Positions 4,359 through 50,681 of a DNA stretch of 64,000 nt are shown piece by piece (the stretch's first letter is position 1; each line of letters begins with the position of its first letter). This DNA comes from Sphingobacterium pedocola (GTDB lineage Bacteria > Bacteroidota > Bacteroidia > Sphingobacteriales > Sphingobacteriaceae). A program made the position numbers and the translations under genes. Where the stretch lies: assembly GCF_015209965.1 (NCBI RefSeq), contig NZ_MU158693.1, forward strand, positions 347,138-411,137. Direction: 5' to 3'. The notes under the pieces were generated by a model. It saw only the letters and a program-made list of their open reading frames with translations. It was not told the origin of the DNA and ran no database searches.

Positions 4359-6257
4359 TTACTTTAAGGGAGATGCCAGATAATTTTCTATATCCTGCCA
4401 ATGTTTCCACATGATTTTTCGCTTGGTCTTTAACTGCTCGGTGAAATCAGGGCCTAATAAAAAAGAATCCTCATAGCCTTGATGACGCGCCTTGATCACC
4501 AATTGTTCTCCCCCTTTTTCCATCAGCTGGATCAATCCCAACGCATTATCATATTCGTTACGCATGATTTCATTGAAGCGGATATAATCCGGATGCCCTT
4601 CCCATGTCGCTACTTTACCAATGACGACCTCGGAACCGTTCAAGACGTCTGCTGCCCGATCGCGGATCTCCTGTGCGTAGATAAAATTCGCACAGCTTTC
4701 CAAGATCTTAGCATAAATACGTAAGCCTAATGCCATGTTGTTCAGATACGTCTTCTGAGCGGCCTGACTACCCACTCCTTCAAAAGTATGGGCGACACGA
4801 TCCGCCCGTTCTGCAAACCCAAATGCACCCGCGGGCGGTACAAATACACGAGCACCGTGCAGGTCCACATAATCGTGACGAGCGTCCTCTTTTGATATGC
4901 TAAATACGTACGGTAAAAAATACGATTCCTCCGCTGCGGTAATCAATGCAGGATCGAACAATAACGGCCGGTTGACCAAGCGCATGGTCACGCCCCAATA
5001 CAACGAACTGATCCGTGGTATCGTGGTGGATTTGTAAGCAAACGCTTCGTTCATGGCCGTAAAGGCACGCTTTAGAGACAATGCGTCCTGAGTACCGCCC
5101 CAATTCAAGGCTACTTCATCCAGCACGCTGTCTAGCGTCGCTTGCTCGTCTTGATTGGCCTTCGCCTTCAGCGCTGCCTCCATGATGCCGATGGTCAATG
5201 CGATCGTCTCAGGAGTATCGCAGCCACGATCATACGCTGCTCTAAAGTTAAGGTATACGGTAGCGGCTTGTTGTTGCTTGATTTCCAACACTTGCTTGAC
5301 TACAGCAACGGGATCAATCAATCCTTGAACAGGATAAGTCGTATTCAGCAAAGACCCCACGGTATAAATCTTACGTTTGTCCCCTCCCGAGAAAAAACAA
5401 TGCGGAGGCATATGCTGTTCGATATCCCGCTTCTCTGCTTCGGAATAATTTGAATTTTTATCATCTACATAAATAGACAATGGCTTGCCAGCTGCACTGG
5501 CTCCTGATTGATAGGACTCCAACAGCATTTTCATCCGTTGACCTGCACTGTATCCGCGACATCCAGCCGGGCCATTAGCACCGGAGTAGAGCCAGTCTGA
5601 CCAGTCAATTCCAGCACCTGCATCGTTTGTTTTGAACCCAAACATGGTAATTTCCGGCACGTGAGTCAACATATCTGACATCATGCGCGAGTACATATTA
5701 CGCGTCTCGGCTGCACAAACGGACGGTGCAAATGCTTTCTGGGTACTTCTCCTGGGGTGATCAACACGAGGTCCCAACATCGCAGGATGAGCTTCAAAAA
5801 ATTCTTCTGGCAAAAAATTCGGCTCGTACCCCAAAAATGCCCCCTCTACTTGGTGTTTACGTAGAATAGCTGCCTTTGCAAGCAATAATTCCCGATTTTT
5901 CTTTACAAAGTCTACCGGTATGAAGGGAGCCACTAGCTTATCGGGAAAAAATTTGGACGGCGTAGGGTTGCTGGAGGCATACTCATGCCACGAGCTACCT
6001 TCTTCCGGTATCTCATGAAAACTTTTATCCGCCAGTGTACTGATATTGACCCGAACCGTTCCAAACGACTTCAAGGGTGTTGCCGACTCCACGATCCGTT
6101 CAAAATTTGATAAATCATTGACCGGTGCATTCACCACGAATACCAAGCCCTTTTCCCCATCTTGGGTGTGTTGTGCATACCCTTGATTAAAAAAACCTAA
6201 ACTACCTTTAGCGATCAGCACTACCGATAGAAGCCACTTCATCTTACTTTTCGACAT
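4359..6257 (-). CDS. Large secreted protein, possible TIM-barrel glycan-active enzyme
   Basis: 632 residues with an N-terminal signal peptide (KWLLSVVLIAKGSLGFFNQ, ending GYAQ). The family is not securely recognised. Residues about 30-330 alternate beta-like and helical segments with acidic and aromatic clusters (GAFLGYEPNFLPEEFF, FGFKTNDAGAGIDWSDWLYS, YVDDKNSNYSEAEKRD), reminiscent of a glycoside-hydrolase-type (beta/alpha)8 barrel with candidate acids in GYEPN and NDAG. The C-terminal 250 residues are mainly helical and Ala-rich (AALKAKANQDEQATLDSVLD, ESCANFIYAQEIRDRAADVL), like helical domains appended to GH20/GH84/GH67-type barrels. Its place among PUL lyase-like genes makes a glycosidase plausible; the assignment is inference. 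Confidence 0.65.
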   Translation of the reverse strand: MSKSKMKWLLSVVLIAKGSLGFFNQGYAQHTQDGEKGLVFVVNAPVNDLSNFERIVESATPLKSFGTVRVNISTLADKSFHEIPEEGSSWHEYASSNPTPSKFFPDKLVAPFIPVDFVKKNRELLLAKAAILRKHQVEGAFLGYEPNFLPEEFFEAHPAMLGPRVDHPRRSTQKAFAPSVCAAETRNMYSRMMSDMLTHVPEITMFGFKTNDAGAGIDWSDWLYSGANGPAGCRGYSAGQRMKMLLESYQSGASAAGKPLSIYVDDKNSNYSEAEKRDIEQHMPPHCFFSGGDKRKIYTVGSLLNTTYPVQGLIDPVAVVKQVLEIKQQQAATVYLNFRAAYDRGCDTPETIALTIGIMEAALKAKANQDEQATLDSVLDEVALNWGGTQDALSLKRAFTAMNEAFAYKSTTIPRISSLYWGVTMRLVNRPLLFDPALITAAEESYFLPYVFSISKEDARHDYVDLHGARVFVPPAGAFGFAERADRVAHTFEGVGSQAAQKTYLNNMALGLRIYAKILESCANFIYAQEIRDRAADVLNGSEVVIGKVATWEGHPDYIRFNEIMRNEYDNALGLIQLMEKGGEQLVIKARHQGYEDSFLLGPDFTEQLKTKRKIMWKHWQDIENYLASPLK

Positions 6258-6409
6258 TTTTTCAACTCTAACTCTTTATATATTCTCTTTTTCTATTTTA
6301 AACAGGTATTATATCCCGTCCCATAATCACCGATGGATAGCTAAATCTCGAAGACAGCCTTCCAATTCATCAAGGGCCGCTATTTGATAATAACAAAGTA
6401 ATTTCCTCT

Positions 6410-7384
6410 CTACTCACCCACCACCTTATTCATTCCGATACGTTTTTTAGCCACCACGATATGGTCATATAAAACACCCACGTCACTATGTTCTCCGTGA
6501 TGATATAATCTGGCATTAAACAAGCTTACTTTCAGACCAGGTGCTGTCCTCAACCATAGATTTTCAAACGGCCCGTATTCGACGCCATCAATCCAAAAAT
6601 TAATAACGCCATCTGCGTCTTCCTCCGTGGCCGTCGGAGTTCCCATATCGAGCATCAGTTCAATACAATACCACTTACCTGCCTCCAATTCTGGCGTACG
6701 TTTTTCAGGTTTTTCACGATACTCCGGTTTGGTGCAATAGCTATTGCTTAAGAAACAAGGAAGATGATCTCCCCAACACTCGCCATTAGGATTGCGACAA
6801 TCCATGTACATCCCTCTATAATATGTGTATAAAAAGGGTTTAGCATTCCTATGATCATATTCGAACCCCATCGACACACGGTCTGTTCCATCCGGTCTCA
6901 TTCCCGATGATCCCATAAGGCTTCTCTCCCCAGCGAATAATCCACCTCCATGATTCTTTGCTGTGAAATCAAATCCTTCTTCCCATTTAGCATACCAGCG
7001 TGCATAGACTTTATCATGTTTACTCGGTAAGACCTTCACCACATCTGCCCCACCTCTTCCCGGCTTCGCCCAAAGACGCATCACATGGTTATCTGGCTTA
7101 TTAAAGGGCCCCGGATCTTTTAACAACGTATTTTCAGGTTCTGGATTTCTGTCGTAATCGTCCCAGACCCTCAGATGTCCATCCTCAAAGCTATTCATGA
7201 AAATAATATCCGAGGTCGTTAGGAGCTCCAACTCCTCCGGCTCTTCAGGCGACGGAGGTGGTTCTTCCACAATGGAATCTTCTACAGTTGGTTTTGAGGT
7301 TTTATCGCAAGCAGAAAGCGAAACAGCGATCAAACAAGCAGCGATCAGTACACTGTAAACTTTGACAACTAGTGATTTTTTCAT
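6410..7384 (-). CDS. Polysaccharide-lyase-like lipoprotein (PL14/PL20-type jelly roll), copy 1
   Basis: The start is placed at 7384 (MKKSLVVKVYSVLIAACLI, lipobox at SACDKTSKP); the longer frame to 7435 would add 17 charged residues and run into the upstream gene. After a Pro/Glu-rich linker, a single domain of about 255 residues follows. Landmarks are DIIFMNSFEDG, KVYARWYAKWEEGFDF, NHGGGL, WYCIELMLDMGTP, FWIDGVEYGPFENLWLR and YHHGEHSDVG. This pattern resembles beta-jelly-roll polysaccharide lyases acting on polyuronates (alginate/glucuronan type, PL14/PL20). Two close paralogues lie at 8583 and 9674. Probable role: surface cleavage of an acidic polysaccharide; alternatively non-catalytic binding. 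Confidence 0.75.
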   Translation of the reverse strand: MKKSLVVKVYSVLIAACLIAVSLSACDKTSKPTVEDSIVEEPPPSPEEPEELELLTTSDIIFMNSFEDGHLRVWDDYDRNPEPENTLLKDPGPFNKPDNHVMRLWAKPGRGGADVVKVLPSKHDKVYARWYAKWEEGFDFTAKNHGGGLFAGERSLMGSSGMRPDGTDRVSMGFEYDHRNAKPFLYTYYRGMYMDCRNPNGECWGDHLPCFLSNSYCTKPEYREKPEKRTPELEAGKWYCIELMLDMGTPTATEEDADGVINFWIDGVEYGPFENLWLRTAPGLKVSLFNARLYHHGEHSDVGVLYDHIVVAKKRIGMNKVVGE

Positions 7385-43309: not shown

Positions 43310-44401
43310 ATGAGTAGTATGCGAAGAAATGAGTTTATTGATTGGGCAGATCAATATTTGAGAGGAGAGTTATCCGCGGGCGATCGTTTTGCTTTTGAAA
43401 AATTTTGCCAAGATCACCCCGAATTCCAGCAAATTCTTGAAGAACACCGAGGGTTCATCTCTTCTTGGAAAGAAACTGAACAAAGGCGTATGTTCAAAAT
43501 GTCTTTACAGCAAGAATTATTACATCACCAAGCTCCTGCGAAAGCCAATACTGGGATCATCAAGATTTGGAAGAAACTACAGATGAATGCAGGTGTGGCC
43601 GCAGCAGTAGCATTGATCTCTGTCTTCTCCACATTATGGCTCACAGGTTATTTTACCAGTATCAAAAAGGCTTCCACAGACTACAGCGCCTTGCGTCGTG
43701 AAATGAATACGGTAAAGAAGAATGTAAATGAGCAAAACAGGAAGATCCAAAATATCAATAGCGGAAAAGAGAAGAGTCCGACGCCGATACACTTCGGTGC
43801 TACAGGGTTTATGCTGACCAGAGATGGCTACGTTGTAACAAACTATCATGTGGTAAATGGCGCTGATTCTGTGCATCTTCAGAACACAAAAGGCCAGGCA
43901 TTTAAAGCCCAGATCGTTTATTCAGACATAGAGAAAGACTTGGCCATTTTGCATATCAGCGATAGTACATTCAAACCCTTAAAAACCGTTCCATATACAT
44001 TCAAAAGACAAATCTCTGATATTGGGGAAGATATTTATACGATCGGTTTCCCTCGGGATGAGGCAGTATACGGTCAGGGATATTTAAGTTCGAATACGGG
44101 GTATGCAGGAGATACGATCGCTTACCAAATTTCGATCCCTATCAATCCGGGTAATAGTGGTGGACCGGTTCTAGACAACAGAGGAAATATTATCGGTATC
44201 ATTTCTGGTAAACAAAAAGGTATTGATGGCGCCGGGTTTGCGATTAAAACCAAAGAACTTATCGAAACATTAAATCGGATACCTGCGGATTCATTAAGAG
44301 GAAATGTAGTTTTGAGTACTAAAAATACATTGTCGAATTTACCGCGGACCGAGCAGATTAAAAAAATTCAGGATTATATCTATATCGTTAAAGTATACTA
44401 G
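43310..44401 (+). CDS. Membrane-anchored trypsin-like serine protease with anti-sigma-like N-terminus
   Basis: 363 residues. The cytoplasmic N-terminus (about 1-90, RNEFIDWADQYLRGELSAGD, FEKFCQDHPEFQQILEEHR) resembles the zinc-free anti-sigma domain of Bacteroidota. One TM helix (about 92-115, GVAAAVALISVFSTLWLTGY) and a coiled linker follow. The S1/HtrA-like protease has His180 in TNYHVVNG, Asp210 in KDLAILHIS and Ser283 in NPGNSGGPVL, so it should be active outside the membrane. No PDZ domain is present. Coupled to the sigma gene 14 bp upstream. Confidence 0.85.
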   Translation: MSSMRRNEFIDWADQYLRGELSAGDRFAFEKFCQDHPEFQQILEEHRGFISSWKETEQRRMFKMSLQQELLHHQAPAKANTGIIKIWKKLQMNAGVAAAVALISVFSTLWLTGYFTSIKKASTDYSALRREMNTVKKNVNEQNRKIQNINSGKEKSPTPIHFGATGFMLTRDGYVVTNYHVVNGADSVHLQNTKGQAFKAQIVYSDIEKDLAILHISDSTFKPLKTVPYTFKRQISDIGEDIYTIGFPRDEAVYGQGYLSSNTGYAGDTIAYQISIPINPGNSGGPVLDNRGNIIGIISGKQKGIDGAGFAIKTKELIETLNRIPADSLRGNVVLSTKNTLSNLPRTEQIKKIQDYIYIVKVY

Positions 44402-44424
44402 TAGCTTTCAATAGTACTATATTT

Positions 44425-44463
44425 AAAAGCACCTTGGATTTCTTGTCCAAGGTGCTTTTTTTG
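44425..44463. terminator. Bidirectional terminator between convergent genes
   Basis: AAAAGCACCTTGGA (44425-44438) pairs with TCCAAGGTGCTTTT (44446-44459), a 14-bp stem with a 7-nt loop followed by a T tract. It ends both the protease gene (plus) and the Cas12f-like gene (minus), 7 bp past the latter's stop. The tight placement shows the Cas12f-like gene ends here naturally. Confidence 0.88.
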
Positions 44464-44469
44464 TAGATC

Positions 44470-45564
44470 TTATTCAACAATCAGGTTAATTCCCGCCATG
44501 CTGGCTTTATACTTTATTTTTTCGATCAAACCGTAATAGCTCCAGTTGCGCAACAGGAATTCATCGTCTTTGGCCGCTTCTTCTTTATTCGTTTGGTTCA
44601 CGAGTAAAAGTGTACCCGCCTGCGATTTCACGCAGATATCGATCAACCGACGGCTATACAAGTGCAAACGGCTATCTACATAGTTCTTTTCCTTTTCACT
44701 AAAATGCTCGAGACTTTTGAGTTTTTTCGTTCTTCCCTTCCCGCCTCTATTAAAGGCGGACGCTTTCTGAATGCGATGTCTTGCCGCCTGTATAGCCATC
44801 CGTCTATACAAGAATTCCTCTTTATTGCCGATCTGAAAATTATCCTTGTCGATATTGACTGTAATCGGATGCTCTACAGAAAGAGAAGCCTCTGCTATGA
44901 CATGATCCTTTAGGACATGTTGTTTTTTGGGAAGCTCCAATGCGATAAGCAGGAATATCTTCCCTTTTACAATCTTAATAGAGCTACCGCATATCTTTAT
45001 CTGTCCCACCAAAGCCCGTTGCAGCAACACGCGTTTATCCGAGCGATCCTTGCCCAAATACGTACGGAAGGGAATCTTAAATAAGTTGAATTTGAAATCC
45101 CTACCTTTTTCATCATTACTGAATTTAATCTGAATGCCTGAGAACGGAATAGGCATGTCCTTTTTATAATTACGAAGCGACTTCTCCCCTTTCCAATATG
45201 CGAGTCGATCGGCGTTGAAGTTCTTAATCAACGTCATATTCATATTCGAGATGATGTCCGCAGGCAGTTTGCCTTTAAAGGAAGCGGACAGCACCCTATA
45301 AGTCGTGTTCATCCGCGAGGTGTTTAGAATGCCTTCCGGATCTTTATTGTTGTCTGCTAATTTCACCTTCACATCATCCCGTAAGTAGATCAGGTCTTTT
45401 ATATTTTCCTGAAGATATTGATGCGTCAGGACCATATTCGAGCCACGGTAGACAATATCCTGCCATTCGAATAGTTTCTTAAAATATTCCGCACGTTTTT
45501 CCTTTTCGTCGCAGTCGATGTAAATCTGTACTTTGCGGGTTAAAATAATTGTATCATTTGCCAT
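44470..45564 (-). CDS. Cas12f/TnpB-like protein, predicted nuclease-dead and C-terminally truncated
   Basis: 364 residues, against about 400-530 for TnpB or Cas12f1. From about residue 110 it follows the Cas12f1 plan: MPIPFSGIQIKF and FKFNLFKIPFRTYLG (wedge), IKIVKGKIFLLIALELPKK, VEHPITVNIDKDN (RuvC-I, Asp239 possibly kept), EFLYRRMAIQAARHRIQK, GGKGRTKKLKSLEHFSEKEK and YVDSRLHLYSRRLIDICVKS (bridge helix region), then GTLLLVNQTN where Val322 replaces the RuvC-II Glu, and NWSYYGLIEKIKYKASMAG. It stops at INLIVE, just before the position of the TSxxC zinc ribbon and the RuvC-III Asp, neither of which exists. It should bind guide RNA and DNA but not cut. Cotranscribed 12 bp after a sigma-factor gene; CRISPR-like arrays lie upstream. 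The family assignment is by reading, not by search. Confidence 0.82.
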   Translation of the reverse strand: MANDTIILTRKVQIYIDCDEKEKRAEYFKKLFEWQDIVYRGSNMVLTHQYLQENIKDLIYLRDDVKVKLADNNKDPEGILNTSRMNTTYRVLSASFKGKLPADIISNMNMTLIKNFNADRLAYWKGEKSLRNYKKDMPIPFSGIQIKFSNDEKGRDFKFNLFKIPFRTYLGKDRSDKRVLLQRALVGQIKICGSSIKIVKGKIFLLIALELPKKQHVLKDHVIAEASLSVEHPITVNIDKDNFQIGNKEEFLYRRMAIQAARHRIQKASAFNRGGKGRTKKLKSLEHFSEKEKNYVDSRLHLYSRRLIDICVKSQAGTLLLVNQTNKEEAAKDDEFLLRNWSYYGLIEKIKYKASMAGINLIVE

Positions 45565-45576
45565 AGTTCCTCCTTT

Positions 45577-46392
45577 TTATGCTGTTTGTTTGGATTGCTT
45601 TATTTTTGCGTGCGCTTCAACGAATAGCTTCTTCACCATCGCGGAACTTAGCTGCAAGGCTTCTGAAATCTGTTCAAAGGAGAGCTGCAACTCGTAGCGC
45701 ATATGGAAGATCTCTGCCTGCTGATCATTGAACTCACCCTGCAGTACAATTTTAGCAGGTTTATTTAACAGATCCATTTTCTCCGAGCTGTTGAATATGC
45801 TGCGCAACGTATCAATTGTTTTCTCTACCTGCATACTGACCTCATAATCGGATATGCCGCCGAGATAGTAAGCAATGCGTTCATAATTAAAACTATATTT
45901 CAAGCACAGTTTGATAAAGAGTTGTTGTTCGTCTTTCAGACTGGGCAGGATACTATTTAATCGATTCATCTGTTCCTGCTTTTCGGTTTCCAATCTTTCG
46001 AGGTAGACCAGATCTTCCTCCTCCTCTTCTTCCAGTTCATAGCCCAATAAAAACTCCTGATAATCCTCAATACCGTCCAAGCGTAATAGACTACGATTAA
46101 ACCGATTTCTTGATTTGCTATAATAAGCCTTTATCGCAGCGTTAACCTGTGTTTTAAGAAAAGTAAAAACCGCATCCATGGAGTCTACATTCTCTCGAAA
46201 TAACCAGAGCCGTAGAAAAGCTTCCTGTACAATACTTTCTGCGTCACATTCGTCCTTGGTGTACTTTTCAGCACGGAAATGAAAATAACCGTAAAACTTT
46301 TTGTAGAAGAAGTCCAGGCCCTTTTCCCTACCGTCGTTCAGCAATAAAATATGCCGTTCAATATCTTTTTTTTGTTGTAATAGTTTACTCAT
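45577..46392 (-). CDS. Sigma-70-family factor paired with the Cas12f-like protein
   Basis: 271 residues, long for an ECF factor (usual about 190). Region 2: about 25-95, with DAESIVQEAFLRLWLFREN and FLKTQVNAAIKAYYSKSRNR. An acidic linker (GYELEEEEEEDLVYLERLET) follows. Then two HTH-like segments: about 150-210 (LPSLKDEQQLFIKLCLKYSF, RIAYYLGGISDYEV) and about 225-271 (GEFNDQQAEIFHMRYELQLS, ISEALQLSSAMVKKLF). One may be the usual region 4; the second could bind the Cas12f-like partner or DNA. No anti-sigma gene is adjacent. It is 12 bp upstream of the Cas12f-like gene. Confidence 0.85.
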   Translation of the reverse strand: MSKLLQQKKDIERHILLLNDGREKGLDFFYKKFYGYFHFRAEKYTKDECDAESIVQEAFLRLWLFRENVDSMDAVFTFLKTQVNAAIKAYYSKSRNRFNRSLLRLDGIEDYQEFLLGYELEEEEEEDLVYLERLETEKQEQMNRLNSILPSLKDEQQLFIKLCLKYSFNYERIAYYLGGISDYEVSMQVEKTIDTLRSIFNSSEKMDLLNKPAKIVLQGEFNDQQAEIFHMRYELQLSFEQISEALQLSSAMVKKLFVEAHAKIKQSKQTA

Positions 46393-46422
46393 AATTGTTG
46401 TTTAGTTTGTTATCGATTAGAT

Positions 46423-46482
46423 AGCTTACTGCAGCCCCGGGGGATATATCTGGCGGTTTTTGTGGCCGGGCCCGCGTAAGCT
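46423..46482 (-). ncRNA. Structured inverted-repeat element upstream of sigma gene; possible guide-RNA scaffold
   Basis: AGCTTAC at 46423-46429 pairs with GTAAGCT at 46476-46482, and inside these GCAGCCCCGG faces CCGGGCCCGC with two mismatches, a stem of about 17 bp. The 26-nt loop contains the palindrome GATATATC. This is the most GC-rich block in an AT-rich region and lies between the trailer of array A and the sigma start (31 bp before it). Position suits a tracrRNA-like scaffold or an RNA leader controlling the operon. No clear anti-repeat was found, so the role is open. Confidence 0.4.
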
Positions 46483-46530
46483 GTATATGAATAGAATGTG
46501 TTGGTATTGAAGATATAGCTGCAAGACTCT

Positions 46531-46947
46531 GTTGTGTATACTTTAACGTGTGTGATAAGCAGATTTGCGGATTCGCCTATGCGCGGATTTGCGATAAACG
46601 TACCTTTTAAATTGTAGTGAGTAATACCTCCGAATTCGATTCAGCGGTCATTCAGGTGTTGTGTATACCCTTCAAATAGGTAGTAAGCAAATTCGCAAAT
46701 TTGCCTATTCACGAATCAGCTATAAAGTACCTTTCAAATTGTGGTGAGTAACACTTTAGAATGCGCATTACGAGGTGTCATCCAGTTGTGCATACCTTTC
46801 AAATTGCAAGAGTTAACACCGGAGGAAGATAGAACTATAGCAGGGCTCCGTTGTGCATACCTTTAAAATTGGGGTGAGTAACAACTTAAAAACTATGAAT
46901 GAGGAATATTAGTTGTGCGTACCTTATAAATCAAGTAAGCGAATTTG
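46531..46947 (-). CRISPR. CRISPR-like array segment A (7 degenerate repeats)
   Basis: Repeat units of about 36 bp start at 46531, 46593, 46658, 46720, 46785, 46850 and 46912; on the plus strand they begin GTTGTGTATACCTTTCAAA and end GAGTAACACC. Spacers are 26, 29, 26, 29, 29 and 26 bp, and differ in sequence. The first and third intervals carry the same palindromic element instead of a unique spacer. Read on the minus strand the repeat ends in CACAAC next to the spacer, like Cas12f-type crRNA. The segment is nearest the sigma/Cas12f-like operon and the most degenerate. The interval 46393-46530 otherwise holds only the structured element. Confidence 0.8.
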
Positions 46948-46988
46948 CAATTTTGCCTATTCGCGAATAAGCACACCCGCAAGAAAAT

Positions 46989-47046
46989 AAAAAAGTATTT
47001 AGCGAGTGGCATATCGCCCTCACCCTACGGCGTCACAAGAAGCCTC
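46989..47046 (-). repeat. 58-bp conserved element, copy 1 (array head)
   Basis: It reads AAAAAAGTATTTAGCGAGTG on the plus strand and ends CACAAGAAGCCTC. Two other copies occur at 48029 and 49750. On the minus strand it sits directly upstream of array A, starts GAGGCTTCTTGTGACGCC, forms a short GCGA/TCGC hairpin and ends in T6. It could be a leader, a small RNA with its own terminator or a tracr-like element. It differs from the other copies by one base (GGCATATC against GGCCTATC). Confidence 0.7.
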
Positions 47047-47113
47047 TAATTAAGATTGCATATTTTTATAACACGTATTGTTTTCGTATTTTTACACGTG
47101 AAAGGAAAATGTT

Positions 47114-47356
47114 ATGAATACAAAACTTACATTGAATTTAGAAAAGAATATCATCGAAAGTGCGAAAGATTATGCTAAGCATAATAAGACCAGCCTTTCA
47201 AAACTGATTGAGAATTACCTAAAATCGTTGACCGAAAAAGAAGAAAACACGACGGTAAGTCCGCTTGTTGAAAGTCTTACAGGAATCATCCCTCAAGAGC
47301 CGGAGAAAAAATACAAAAAGGAATACGCCGAATATTTAAACAAAATTAGAAAATAA
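47114..47356 (+). CDS. DUF6364-type antitoxin
   Basis: 80 residues, MNTKLTLNLEKNIIESAKDY then AKHNKTSLSKLIENYLKSL, a ribbon-helix-helix-like N-terminus followed by a charged tail (EPEKKYKKEYAEYLNKIRK). Such proteins normally precede a PIN-domain toxin gene. Here only the toxin's last 28 codons remain downstream, so the module is an orphan antitoxin. A GGAAAA ribosome site lies 8 bp before the ATG. It sits between array segments A and B. Confidence 0.8.
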   Translation: MNTKLTLNLEKNIIESAKDYAKHNKTSLSKLIENYLKSLTEKEENTTVSPLVESLTGIIPQEPEKKYKKEYAEYLNKIRK

Positions 47357-47357
47357 C

Positions 47358-47444
47358 TTAGCCATCATTATTACCCGCAATAAAAAAGATTTCAAAAACA
47401 ATATTCTTCCGGTAATGACCGCCAAAGAATACCTAAGTAGATAA
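47358..47444 (+). pseudogene. Remnant of a PIN-domain (VapC-like) toxin, C-terminal end only
   Basis: The frame TTA...TAA reads LAIIITRNKKDFKNNILPVM then TAKEYLSR and a stop, the typical C-terminal block of PIN toxins (TRNxKDF...PVxTxxEYL). The N-terminal 100 or so residues with the catalytic acids are missing; the deletion joins it 1 bp after the antitoxin stop. It ends exactly where array segment B begins, so the deletion and the array boundary may be related. Confidence 0.75.
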
Positions 47445-48026
47445 TATTACCTTTCAAAAGTAGGAGGGGCACACCTTTCAAATTAGGATGAGTAACACCC
47501 TTGCTAACACACTACTTACTCTCGTGTCCGTTGTGTATACCTTTCAAATTGTGTTCTTCGGCACCAAGCATCTTCATTGTCATCGTTGAGCGTATCGAAA
47601 CATCTCACAATATACAGACACCATAGCGTTCAGATACTTATTCATCAGTGCTTGTCTCTAAGGTACTCATGAGCTCGCTATGCTCGGTTCGGCAGGCCTC
47701 AGTATGACAAGAAAAACAGTATATGCAGGTTACTAAACTTAACTAGCTCCTTTCAAATTGTAGTGAGTAGCAACTTCTCTCTGTTTCTCGTCTGGTAAAT
47801 GGGAGTTGTATACCTTTCAAATTGTAGTGAGTAACATCATTGGAAGGTAGCCTTTTCTCTTCATCAGGGTTGTGCGTACCTTTCAAGTTGCAGGGAGGAA
47901 CACCTTAAAAGAAGTTTACGGGAAAACCGTGGGATTGTGCACACCTTTCAAATTGCAGGAAGTAAGAACATTTCCAAATCTTCAAATCTGATACACATAC
48001 CTTTCAAAACCTCCCCCCTTAACACC
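47443..48026 (-). CRISPR. CRISPR-like array segment B (8 repeats)
   Basis: A repeat fragment at 47443 runs straight into a full repeat at 47464; others start at 47530, 47739, 47803, 47869, 47934 and 47990. Unique spacers of 30, 28-30, 30 and 29 bp separate the ordinary ones, and a 20-bp interval precedes the last. Between 47530 and 47739 a dispersed palindromic repeat (about 175 bp, with CTTCATTGTCATC and AGTATGACAAGAAAAACAG) has been inserted and has replaced the end of one repeat and a spacer. The final unit keeps only the start and the ACACC end. Confidence 0.85.
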
Positions 48027-48028
48027 TA

Positions 48029-48086
48029 AAAAAAGTATTTAGCGAGTGGCCTATCGCCCTCACCCTACGGCGTCACAAGAAGCCTC
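48029..48086 (-). repeat. 58-bp conserved element, copy 2 (array head)
   Basis: Same sequence as the copy at 49750. It abuts the last degenerate repeat of segment B and is followed on the plus side by AT-rich DNA leading to the RelE/ParE-type toxin-antitoxin genes. The flanks of the three copies differ beyond this core, so the 58 bp are specifically conserved. Confidence 0.75.
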
Positions 48087-48169
48087 TTAATAATAAAACA
48101 TAATTATTTTCAGTACAATAGCAACCCCTTTTTAACAACATATATCCCAAAATGTCAAAAAGTATTTTG

Positions 48170-48177
48170 TAAATTTG
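48170..48177 (+). promoter_or_regulatory. -7 box of the toxin-antitoxin operon
   Basis: TAAATTTG fits TAnnTTTG exactly and lies 21 bp before the ATG at 48199. This argues for the ATG rather than the in-frame TTG at 48175. No clear -33 TTTG is visible. Confidence 0.4.
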
Positions 48178-48198
48178 AATAACAAAATAGATGTTGTT

Positions 48199-48438
48199 AT
48201 GGATATTCAAACGAGGAAAATCGAATTTGTACAAAAATTTTTAAAGCTTCAAAATGAAGAATTACTGACTCGCTTGGAAAAGCTATTGCGTTCCGATCAA
48301 TCAAAAAATGACAAAAATATTGAAGCGATGACAGCGACTGAATTTAATCAAAGGATTGATAAATCGTTAGAAGATTCAAAAAATGAGCGACTCACAAATT
48401 CAGATGATTTAATTGCGGAAATAAAAAAATGGGGTTAA
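48199..48438 (+). CDS. Antitoxin of RelE/ParE-type module
   Basis: 79 residues, MDIQTRKIEFVQKFLKLQNE then ELLTRLEKLLRSD, with MTATEFNQRIDKSLEDSKNE and a C-terminal SDDLIAEIKKWG. The pattern of a helical N-terminus and a disordered toxin-neutralising tail is that of Bacteroidota antitoxins next to RelE/ParE toxins. It overlaps the toxin start by 10 bp. Confidence 0.8.
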   Translation: MDIQTRKIEFVQKFLKLQNEELLTRLEKLLRSDQSKNDKNIEAMTATEFNQRIDKSLEDSKNERLTNSDDLIAEIKKWG

Positions 48439-48767
48439 AGGTATACTGGACCGATTCTGCCAAAAACGAGTTGAAAAACATTTTTAACTATCACAAGGAA
48501 AAAGTTAGTCTAAAAATCGCTCGACAGATAACTACTCAAATTGCCGAAAGTGCTAAGAACTTAAGTAATTTCCCAGAAATTGGAGTCCACGAAGAACTTC
48601 TACAAGAAAGACCGCAGAACTTCAGATATATCGTTAGTACAAATTACAAAATCATTTATTGGATAAACGACAAAAAAACAGCGTTGAAATTGTCGATGTA
48701 TTTGATGCCCGACAAAATCCAATTAAAATTAAGCGAACTAAATAAAAAAACTTTCAAATTGGGATGA
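48429..48767 (+). CDS. RelE/ParE-family toxin
   Basis: 112 residues. VYWTDSAKNELKNIFNYHKE, ARQITTQIAESAKNLSNFPE and FRYIVSTNYKIIYWINDKKT are the strands and helices of the RelE/ParE fold. The last residues (KKTFKLG and the stop) are encoded by a CRISPR-like repeat of segment C, that is, the coding sequence runs into the array and takes its stop codon there. Either the original C-terminus was lost or the array joined at the gene end. It probably acts as an mRNA interferase or gyrase poison. Confidence 0.85.
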   Translation: MGLKVYWTDSAKNELKNIFNYHKEKVSLKIARQITTQIAESAKNLSNFPEIGVHEELLQERPQNFRYIVSTNYKIIYWINDKKTALKLSMYLMPDKIQLKLSELNKKTFKLG

Positions 48768-49449
48768 GTAGCACCTATCACATTCTAAATAGGTAAACGT
48801 CATGAGGTTGCACATACCTTTCAAATTGTAGTGAGTAGCACCGTCGTAGCGATAATACTCCTATCAAATCCTGTTGTGTATGCCTTTCAAAGTGCAGTAA
48901 GCAAATTCGAAAATTTGCCTCTTCGCAGATCTGCAATAGACTACCTTTCAAATTGTAGTGAGTAACATCAAAGATTAGCTCGGGAGATGATCTAAAGTCG
49001 TTGTATATACTTTTCAAATTATGTTCTTCGACGCCAAGTATCTTCGTTGTCATGCTGAATGCAATGAAGCATCTCAAAGTATGCTGGCAGCATAGCGTTC
49101 AGATCTTTCACTACGTTCAAGATGACAAGAAAAACAGTTTGTAAAATTATTAAACCTGACTAGCGCCTTTCAAATTTGCAGGGTGTAACACCAAATTACT
49201 CGGGGGCTGAAATAAGTTGTGTATACCTTTAAAATTGGGATGAGTAGCATCAACGCTGTGTTTTAATTTATCGCTATCAACGTTGTGTATACCTTTCCAA
49301 TTAGGGTGAGTAACACCGAACGCGTTTGAAGCTGTTTCATATCAGGTGTTGTGTATACCTTTCAAATTAGGATGAGCAACACCGCTATTTAATTAACTAT
49401 TCAAAGATAACAAGTTGTGTATACCTTTCAAATTGTATTCTTCAACTCA
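48740..49449 (-). CRISPR. CRISPR-like array segment C (10 repeats)
   Basis: Repeats start at 48740, 48807, 48873, 48934, 49000, 49157, 49216, 49282, 49348 and 49414. Unique spacers are 31, 30, 30, 23, 30, 30 and 30 bp; the intervals after 48873 and 49000 carry dispersed palindromic elements. The units at 49216-49414 are the best conserved (GTTGTGTATACCTTTCAAAT), so this end is the youngest or the leader-proximal end, consistent with minus-strand transcription. The first repeat overlaps the toxin gene end. No cas1, cas2 or active effector is nearby. Confidence 0.88.
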
Positions 49450-49749
49450 AAGTATCTTCATTGTCATATTGAGCGTATCGTCTTACTAAGCAATCATCAT
49501 ACAATAAACCAACAAGAATGAATAATTTAGACTGCCGCGTCGTGCCTCCTCGCAGTGACGTGCAGTAACCGTCCATTGTGATAGTAACATCGACGTCATC
49601 GCGAACCTGAGGCACGAAGGTGTGGAGATCTTATGCTCTTAAAGGAAAGACTGCCGCATCGTACCTCCTCACAGTGACGACCCCTTGTACTACCAAAACC
49701 CTATCTCCTAACACCTAACCTCTATCCCCTCCCCCTTAACACCTAAAAT
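49450..49749. repeat. Dispersed palindromic repeats between array C and its head element
   Basis: TATCTTCATTGTCATATTGAG follows the last repeat. Then come two copies of a GACTGCCGCGTCGTGCCTCC-type sequence (49530-49560 and 49648-49680), which reappears in the opposite orientation at about 62285-62320. A CACCTAA-rich stretch (49700-49745) ends the block. No gene is seen. These are the kind of mobile or REP-like intergenic repeats common in this family. Confidence 0.6.
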
Positions 49750-49807
49750 AAAAAAGTATTTAGCGAGTGGCCTATCGCCCTCACCCTACGGCGTCACAAG
49801 AAGCCTC
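49750..49807 (-). repeat. 58-bp conserved element, copy 3 (array head)
   Basis: AAAAAAGTATTTAGCGAGTG on the plus strand, ending AAGAAGCCTC, identical to copy 2 in all 58 bp. It lies about 300 bp from the last repeat of segment C, the gap being filled with dispersed repeats. Beyond it (49808-50198) no convincing gene is seen; two tiny frames (40 aa from 49859, 21 hydrophobic aa from 50054) are not supported. Confidence 0.75.
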
Positions 49808-50198
49808 AATTAAATATTTCACTTTTTTATCAATACCAATACGTCAAAGAACATAGCGATGCATATAGAAGACTTTTCACAAAAGGCAAGTCTCTTCCAT
49901 GTCGTCTTTCGACAACACCGCATCTTGATTAAAATTTATGGTAAAGATCCTACGCGTTTTCGGTTTTCTTCAAGTTAATAATATCGTATTATTATGCTGT
50001 AGGATTCTGAGAATGTATTCAATACTGGCCAGTCTTAAACTGGGGATTTGATAATGTTTTTATATATGCTTTTTCTCATATGGGCACTAATTTGGTTGTC
50101 TTATTATAATCAAAGATAATAGAAAGTTTTTACAAACACAAATAATTATCAAAATTCACTTGTATTTTTATTGCGCAAATTTTCACTCAATTTGTTAT

Positions 50199-50681
50199 GT
50201 GTCTAATATTAATAAACATATCCTAAATCAAATCGGTATACAACTACGTGCCAGAAGGGAAGAACTTCATTATTCCCAAAAGGATGTAGCCAACATGACC
50301 GGTCTCACAGTGAACACCATATCAGCCATTGAAAAAGGCGGAGGTTCAACACTGTACAATTTCCTTTTACTATGTCGTTCGCTACATATACAACCTAAAG
50401 AGTTTTTTCAAGAAGACATTGATTTAACACCACTGTATAATATACCCCCCGATTCAAAAAGACGGATAGAAATCACCCAGAAACTTGATAATCTGGTTTA
50501 TCACTCCGATTTTTTTACCAGTCCAAAGCGCGTCGCCGATGTGATCAAAGAATTAGACACCGAAAAAAGCGACAGCAACAAATTCTCCGTTTATCTGACC
50601 GGCTATTGTAAAGAAGGCGAACTGGAATATATCAAAGAGGGCAACATCAAAAAGTATATTAAAAAGAAAAATGGGGGCTAG
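50199..50681 (+). CDS. XRE-family transcriptional regulator
   Basis: 160 residues from the GTG at 50199 (SNINKHILNQIGIQLRARRE); a TTG at 50160 would add 13 residues. The Cro/C1 HTH is in YSQKDVANMTGLTVNTISAI followed by EKGGGSTLYNFLLLC. The C-terminal 90 residues (KRRIEITQKLDNLVYHSDFF, NKFSVYLTGYCKEGELEYIK) are not recognised. It overlaps the convergent transglutaminase gene by 23 bp. It could regulate that gene or a toxin system of the kind common with such HTH proteins. Confidence 0.8.
   Translation: MSNINKHILNQIGIQLRARREELHYSQKDVANMTGLTVNTISAIEKGGGSTLYNFLLLCRSLHIQPKEFFQEDIDLTPLYNIPPDSKRRIEITQKLDNLVYHSDFFTSPKRVADVIKELDTEKSDSNKFSVYLTGYCKEGELEYIKEGNIKKYIKKKNGG

Follow-up and report, generated by a model that had tools for sequence, protein, structure and literature searches.

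A stretch of 64,000 nucleotides from Sphingobacterium pedocola (assembly GCF_015209965.1, contig NZ_MU158693.1, positions 347,138 to 411,137 of the forward strand; hereafter the window) was analyzed around a gene for a nuclease-dead Cas12f homologue, dCas12f. The locus very probably encodes a dCas12f-sigmaE RNA-guided transcription system, with a sigma factor gene next to dCas12f, a guide RNA scaffold, and a repeat-spacer array in which several spacers match DNA upstream of SusC genes of the same genome. As far as the proteins are concerned, systems of this kind are known. In the arrays compared here, most guides are unrelated between species with dCas12f proteins that are up to 98% identical. 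The two protein-coding genes of the system are:

44470..45564, minus strand: dCas12f, nuclease-dead Cas12f homologue, 364 aa (profile, PDB and locus alignments)
45577..46392, minus strand: extracytoplasmic function (ECF)-type sigma factor, 271 aa, with regions 2 and 4, directly upstream of dCas12f

A nuclease-dead Cas12f homologue with a conserved end

Alignment with the Cas12f chain PDB 9nzo_B placed Val322 at the position of the RuvC-II glutamate and Ser227 at that of the RuvC-I aspartate. RuvC-III and the zinc ribbon are absent because the reading frame terminates at ...KASMAGINLIVE, and the match to the PADLOC Cas12f profile reaches position 340 of 399 and no further. The NCBIfam profiles for TnpB and Cas12f2 matched at scores under their cut-offs. 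A first-pass annotation of the window had listed the loss of the RuvC-II glutamate, of RuvC-III and of the zinc ribbon, and these losses were found again here. It had also regarded the upstream half as intact, which is not the case catalytically because the RuvC-I aspartate has been replaced as well, and it had let the frame end six residues into the motif AGINLIVE, which is present as a whole (residues 357-364) before the stop codon.

An end-to-end match was obtained with PDB entry 9n9c, "Nuclease-deactivated Cas12f" (E=1.5e-124, residues 2-363 on 2-364 of 365), and the further entries of this name that matched were 9n9m, 9n9o and 9n9q. The 9n9c chain of 365 aa has the same C-terminal end point as dCas12f. 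We take the four entries to be the dCas12f-sigmaE system of Flagellimonas taeanensis, the RNA-guided transcription of which was reportedly described in 2025 preprints by Hoffmann, Xiao and colleagues; in that system the guide scaffold is said to lie beside the genes and the targets to be of the SusC type.

A family search detected dCas12f in 38 of 201 genomes, S. pedocola included, with 43 match rows. Twenty of these rows, among them the S. pedocola locus, were examined with wide flanks. In 19 of the 20 loci, the open frame has a length of exactly 364 aa and the same end; in the remaining one (L066), the gene contains in-frame stops. All 19 intact copies have Ser or Ala at residue 227 and Val, Leu or Thr at residue 322, and none of these copies, read to the end, continues in frame into a RuvC-III or a zinc finger.

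The ratio of non-synonymous to synonymous substitution rates (dN/dS) was 0.032 for both S. alkalisoli and S. olei and 0.049 for S. lumbrici; for nine more distant loci the synonymous sites were saturated, and no ratio was obtained. The last 49 codons (316-364) contain 2 non-synonymous versus 15 synonymous changes relative to locus L062, and by this count the C-terminal end is under constraint, too. dCas12f is not decaying, because the same 364-aa end is found in 19 of the 20 loci, the dN/dS values are 0.03-0.05, and the 9n9c chain matches throughout. Judged by these comparisons, the loss of the catalytic residues and of the C-terminal part is fixed and selected. The first-pass annotation had expected a fixed loss instead of a sequencing error and had proposed searching orthologues for a conserved truncated end and for purifying selection; both analyses agreed with its expectation.

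A truncated Cas12f relative with 36-38% identity is encoded on the viral contig IMGVR_UViG_3300032030_000024 (L191:4423-5637). It is also devoid of the RuvC-I and RuvC-II residues, and 3' of it lies an array of its own (6255-6625; six 36-nt repeats with a period of 66 nt). By eye, a terminase-like gene was recognized on the contig, and no sigma gene was recognized within 10.6 kb.

The sigma partner

The first-pass annotation had proposed no function for dCas12f and had named neither the sigma gene nor the three guide scaffolds and the array, on which the function proposed below is based. The stop codon of the sigma gene is located 12 bp ahead of dCas12f. The sole PDB match of the sigma factor at E-values up to 1 was the chain "RpoE" in 9n9q (E=3.6e-32, aligned over residues 17-269 of 271). 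This entry contains both "RpoE" and "Nuclease-deactivated Cas12f", and thus the closest solved relatives of both proteins are present in one entry. A full-length sigma gene (270-280 aa) directly 5' of dCas12f was found in 17 of the 20 loci, and sigma is broken in L072 and L075. Genome G193 has two copies of the system, one with a full-length sigma and the dCas12f with in-frame stops (L066), the other with an intact dCas12f and a broken sigma (L072).

Guide scaffold and repeat-spacer array

The window contains three copies of a scaffold of about 58 nt, which presumably resembles the trans-activating CRISPR RNA (tracrRNA) of Cas12f, CRISPR standing for clustered regularly interspaced short palindromic repeats. 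All three are on the dCas12f strand, and each leads into a run of repeats and spacers:

46989..47046, minus strand: guide scaffold copy C (tracrRNA-like), then repeats R17-R23 (covariance model, E=3.4e-24)
48029..48086, minus strand: guide scaffold copy B, then repeats R10-R16 (covariance model, E=9.8e-24)
49750..49807, minus strand: guide scaffold copy A, then repeats R1-R9 (covariance model, E=9.8e-24)
46531..49449, minus strand: degenerate CRISPR-like array, 23 listed repeats and one more diverged copy

Scaffolds were present in all 20 loci, with 46 copies in total, every one of them on the dCas12f strand. The alignment of 36 distinct scaffold sequences has 12 pairs, and changes on both sides were seen at 4 of the 12, as counted without a shuffled control. 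The pair at columns 30-39 showed such changes in 15 of the 36 sequences, and the pair at columns 31-38 is broken or gapped in 9 sequences. Nineteen of the 38 dCas12f genomes supplied the sequences for the covariance model, and the other 19 form the independent part of the following result: matches at E<=0.001 occurred in 44 of the 201 genomes, namely in all 38 with dCas12f and in 6 of the 163 without it. One of these six (G161) has a strong match, and the five others have E-values from 7e-5 to 4e-4. The scaffold matches of two dCas12f genomes (G013 and G173) are as weak as those five, but they adjoin dCas12f. A second guide source was not found elsewhere in the S. pedocola genome with the scaffold model, which yielded three matches, all at this locus, and one weak match with E=0.15. 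No Rfam family reached its gathering score at 44000-50500 of the window. The scaffold end AAATACTTTT is predicted, as read from the sequence, to be able to pair with GAAAGGTAT of the repeat.

The array repeats are about 36 nt long, have 4 to 18 mismatches to the consensus, and end at their 3' side with GAAAGGTATACACAAC; the spacers are about 30 nt long. Toxin-antitoxin genes and dispersed elements break up the array. An antitoxin-like gene (DUF6364) at 47114-47356 lies just upstream of scaffold C, and a ParE-type toxin with its partner at 48175-48767 lies just upstream of scaffold B; the ParE pair also occurs in the S. lumbrici array. A dispersed element similar to repetitive extragenic palindromic (REP) sequences adjoins the array at 49529-49560. 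It occurs also elsewhere in the S. pedocola genome and accounted for about 25 of the 46 rows in the genome-wide search with the array.

Spacer targets upstream of SusC genes

Six spacers of S. pedocola, the genome of which is denoted G000, were counted as having a target:

49384..49413, minus strand: spacer R1, 30/30 match upstream of a SusC gene (G000 C2:14025)
49318..49347, minus strand: spacer R2, 26/30, upstream of a SusC gene (G000 C1:434335)
49186..49215, minus strand: spacer R4, 19 of the first 20, upstream of a SusC operon (G000 C3:319470)
48970..48999, minus strand: spacer R5, 27/30, upstream of a TlpA-SusC operon (G000 C1:1690832)
47904..47933, minus strand: spacer R11, 27/30, upstream of a SusC gene (G000 C1:1374200)
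46820..46849, minus strand: spacer R18, 17 of the first 20, upstream of a TlpA-SusC operon

The whole genome was searched with the array DNA, and 40 of 69 candidates were scored. Spacer matches with E<1 were obtained for R1 (1e-7), R5 (1e-4), R11 (6e-4), R2 (0.09), and R4 (0.6), and all five are situated upstream of SusC genes or operons. The remaining rows with E<1 were the array itself, a scaffold copy, dispersed repeats, and part of a toxin-antitoxin gene. The match of R12 (E=1.2) is outside the counted set.

In a directed comparison, the first 20 nt of 24 spacers were compared with 19 SusC upstream regions and with 20 lower-ranked SusC regions as a control. At a threshold of at least 17 of 20, 6 of the 24 spacers matched the coding strand upstream of the 19 SusC paralogues, a number that is partly circular because these regions were the ones ranked top by likeness to the SusC of the R11 match. 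The genome-wide search is free of that circularity. None of the 24 matched the other strand of the 19 regions or either strand of the control regions, and shuffled spacers reached the threshold in 0.8% of 960. R23, with 16/20, was not counted as a target match.

Two of 11 listed S. lumbrici spacers (29/30 and 26/30) match the coding strand upstream of one TlpA-SusC-SusD operon. Of 19 S. alkalisoli spacers, one matches 30/30 at a site 5' of a TlpA-SusC operon, and a second one (18 of the first 20, genome-wide E=0.14) probably has its target upstream of another TlpA-SusC operon; both sites are on the coding strand. All 10 target sites counted in the three species are on the coding strand. The targeted operons of L081, L082, L085, L086, and L094 share a frame MRKLRK... 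that is located well 5' of the likely signal peptide.

Guides differ between close relatives

The dCas12f proteins of S. alkalisoli, S. olei, and S. lumbrici are 98%, 98%, and 95% identical to that of S. pedocola, respectively. The spacers of 15 clean repeat-spacer-repeat units of S. pedocola were compared with those of the three species; spacers containing the dispersed palindromic element resemble one another and were left out of the sharing counts. Counterparts with at least 85% identity were found for 2 spacers in S. alkalisoli, 0 in S. lumbrici, and 0 in S. olei, the array of which may extend past the sequence compared. Three of 14 S. alkalisoli spacers have a counterpart in S. olei. Between flanking repeats that were reciprocal best matches and at least 93% alike, the spacers were either identical or at chance level. 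The identities were 100, 100, and 33% for S. pedocola and S. alkalisoli, 33, 33, and 33% for S. pedocola and S. olei, and 100, 100, and 97% for S. alkalisoli and S. olei. In two array alignments, a block of about 30 nt has been swapped as a whole at five positions, with its edges at the repeat borders and with unchanged neighbours, and the S. alkalisoli spacer that has the 30/30 target is among the swapped blocks.

A second clade comprises nine loci, several of them from metagenome-assembled genomes, with dCas12f genes that are 89-98% identical in DNA. The repeats near the scaffold can be aligned, the spacers mostly cannot, and the mean identity was 0.34 for spacers versus 0.78 for repeats. 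Among 87 spacers there are 19 between-genome pairs with at least 80% identity, and L174 and L187 have six spacers in common. One guide is kept in the four genomes L168, L174, L176, and L178. Its copies form two pairs, each of identical sequences, and one pair differs from the other by scattered substitutions, which might track synonymous changes of a coding target.

Cas1 (PF01867) had no match in the genomes of S. pedocola and S. lumbrici and had a match in just 7 of the 38 dCas12f genomes. The Cas1 search did not extend to S. alkalisoli, S. olei, or the second clade, and Cas2 was not searched for. Recombination from repeat to repeat could explain the replacement of guides, and a dedicated process might also do so. 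We give about even odds to the broader proposal that the array is a hypervariable programming tape for the sigma factor. Guides of 30 nt would be swapped in place between conserved, position-specific repeats, with no Cas1 in the S. pedocola genome, either by repeat-mediated recombination or by copying of some kind from chromosomal SusC upstream regions, and sister species with near-identical dCas12f would run different SusC regulons.

Neighbouring genes

The following features flank the system:

43310-44401: trypsin-like gene, convergent to dCas12f
44425..44459, no strand assigned: terminator-like inverted repeat that separates dCas12f from the convergent protease gene
50160..50681, plus strand: XRE-type helix-turn-helix gene, divergent from the guide array

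The first-pass annotation had reported a terminator followed by a gene in the opposite direction. The terminator-like repeat and the convergent gene were both confirmed; the distance of the repeat from the dCas12f stop codon is 10 bp and not 7 bp, as had been given. Homologues of the XRE-type gene are present on the same side in 8 of the 20 loci, the S. pedocola locus included, and our guess would be that this gene is a possible regulator of guide expression.

Proposed function and alternative explanations

What the sequence itself shows is a dead nuclease, a sigma partner, a conserved scaffold, and spacer matches with their orientation. Most likely, dCas12f, sigma, and the guides together switch on chosen nutrient-uptake genes. 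Transcripts of scaffold and repeat-spacer units would be processed to guide RNAs, which would be loaded onto dCas12f. dCas12f would then recognize, but not cut, the matching sequence 5' of a SusC (or TlpA-SusC-SusD) operon and would bring its partner sigma, and hence RNA polymerase, to the target site. Transcription would start toward the operon, resulting in its activation. For transcription and processing of the array, formation of the complex, and activation, we rely on homology to the solved complex.

Several results weigh against this function. The partial circularity of the directed comparison is one of them, and 18 of the 24 spacers had no clear target in the regions searched. With a threshold of 16 of 20, the numbers of matching spacers were 8, 1, 0, and 1 of 24 for the coding strand, the other strand, and the two control strands, respectively. 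The distance from the target to the first frame of the operon is variable in S. pedocola (50 to 800 bp), and the two S. lumbrici sites are 2.8 and 1.4 kb away from the operon and separated from it by other genes. Of the 10 sites, 4 have G and 6 have A as the base preceding the target, versus the 5'-G that reportedly lies next to the target in the characterized dCas12f-sigmaE system. No promoter motif common to the regions downstream of the targets was seen by eye. The array of G172 had no clear target, with four matches at E 0.07-0.13 and no SusC within 1.5 kb. The array of G193 had no clear target either; one match (E=0.14) is on the coding strand upstream of SusC, but it comprises the 3' half of the guide with 22/30 and was not counted. 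Only part of the array may work, because many repeats are degenerate. The AlphaFold model was of poor quality (pLDDT, the predicted local distance difference test, 44).

Locus L080 has no intact sigma yet keeps dCas12f and the scaffold. This also counts against the proposed function and would suit an RNA-guided repressor, in which dCas12f would block transcription at its target in a TldR-like manner and the adjacent sigma would be incidental. PMC13418256 describes nuclease-dead TnpB-type RNA-guided proteins as repressors. Nevertheless, a repressor is improbable, as a full-length sigma lies directly upstream in 17 of the 20 loci, dCas12f and sigma have matches in the same solved entry (9n9q), and the targets are found 5' of genes and on a single strand only. 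Even less probable is a decaying remnant of a CRISPR-Cas12f immune locus. The dN/dS of 0.03-0.05, the dead residues and the end shared by 19 of the 20 loci, the conserved scaffold, and spacers that match upstream regions of the cell's own SusC genes all speak against decay, although the degenerate repeats, the insertions in the array, and the missing Cas1 match in the S. pedocola genome would be expected of such a remnant. The C-terminus is abrupt in comparison with active Cas12f, as it would be in a broken allele or a sequencing error of a full-length Cas12f; with the same end codon in 19 of the 20 loci and a 9n9c chain (365 aa) that ends at the same point, the probability of this explanation is close to nil. 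A pseudogene was also considered and was rejected on the basis of the 364-aa frame in 19 of the 20 loci and dN/dS values of 0.032-0.049.

Comparison with known systems

Both proteins are homologous over nearly their full lengths to those of the dCas12f-sigmaE system (9n9c, 9n9m, 9n9o, 9n9q), with the same truncated end. In contrast to that system, S. pedocola has three scaffolds that head long degenerate repeat-spacer arrays, and its guides are largely unshared with close species. No paper on dCas12f with sigma factors was among the matches listed in the literature searches.

The homology to active Cas12f (type V-F; PDB 9nzo, 7l48) extends from about residue 84 to the end, and repeats of about 36 nt with spacers of about 30 nt are a further likeness. 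However, the S. pedocola protein lacks all three catalytic positions and the zinc ribbon, and a sigma factor is encoded alongside. Type V-F immunity would call for an active RuvC with a zinc ribbon, which this protein does not have, and for Cas1 (PF01867), which had no match in the S. pedocola genome.

A likeness to TldR, proposed here, consists of the dead RuvC and the RNA-guided regulation of host genes. S. pedocola differs in its sigma partner and in having several guides per locus, a distinction made without comparing TldR sequences. TldR is defined as a TnpB-derived repressor without a sigma partner, whereas dCas12f has such a partner, and its match to Cas12f (9nzo, E=1.4e-40) is better than that to a chain designated TnpB (9nzp, E=3.4e-22).

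Significance

The locus would represent a CRISPR-activation-like system of natural origin, the targets of which can be read, in a cultured genus. Among close relatives, the protein and the repeats stay and the guides change. This makes two questions testable: how an RNA-guided transcription factor that left immunity would obtain new guides without Cas1, and whether the change of guides rewires nutrient uptake in each species.
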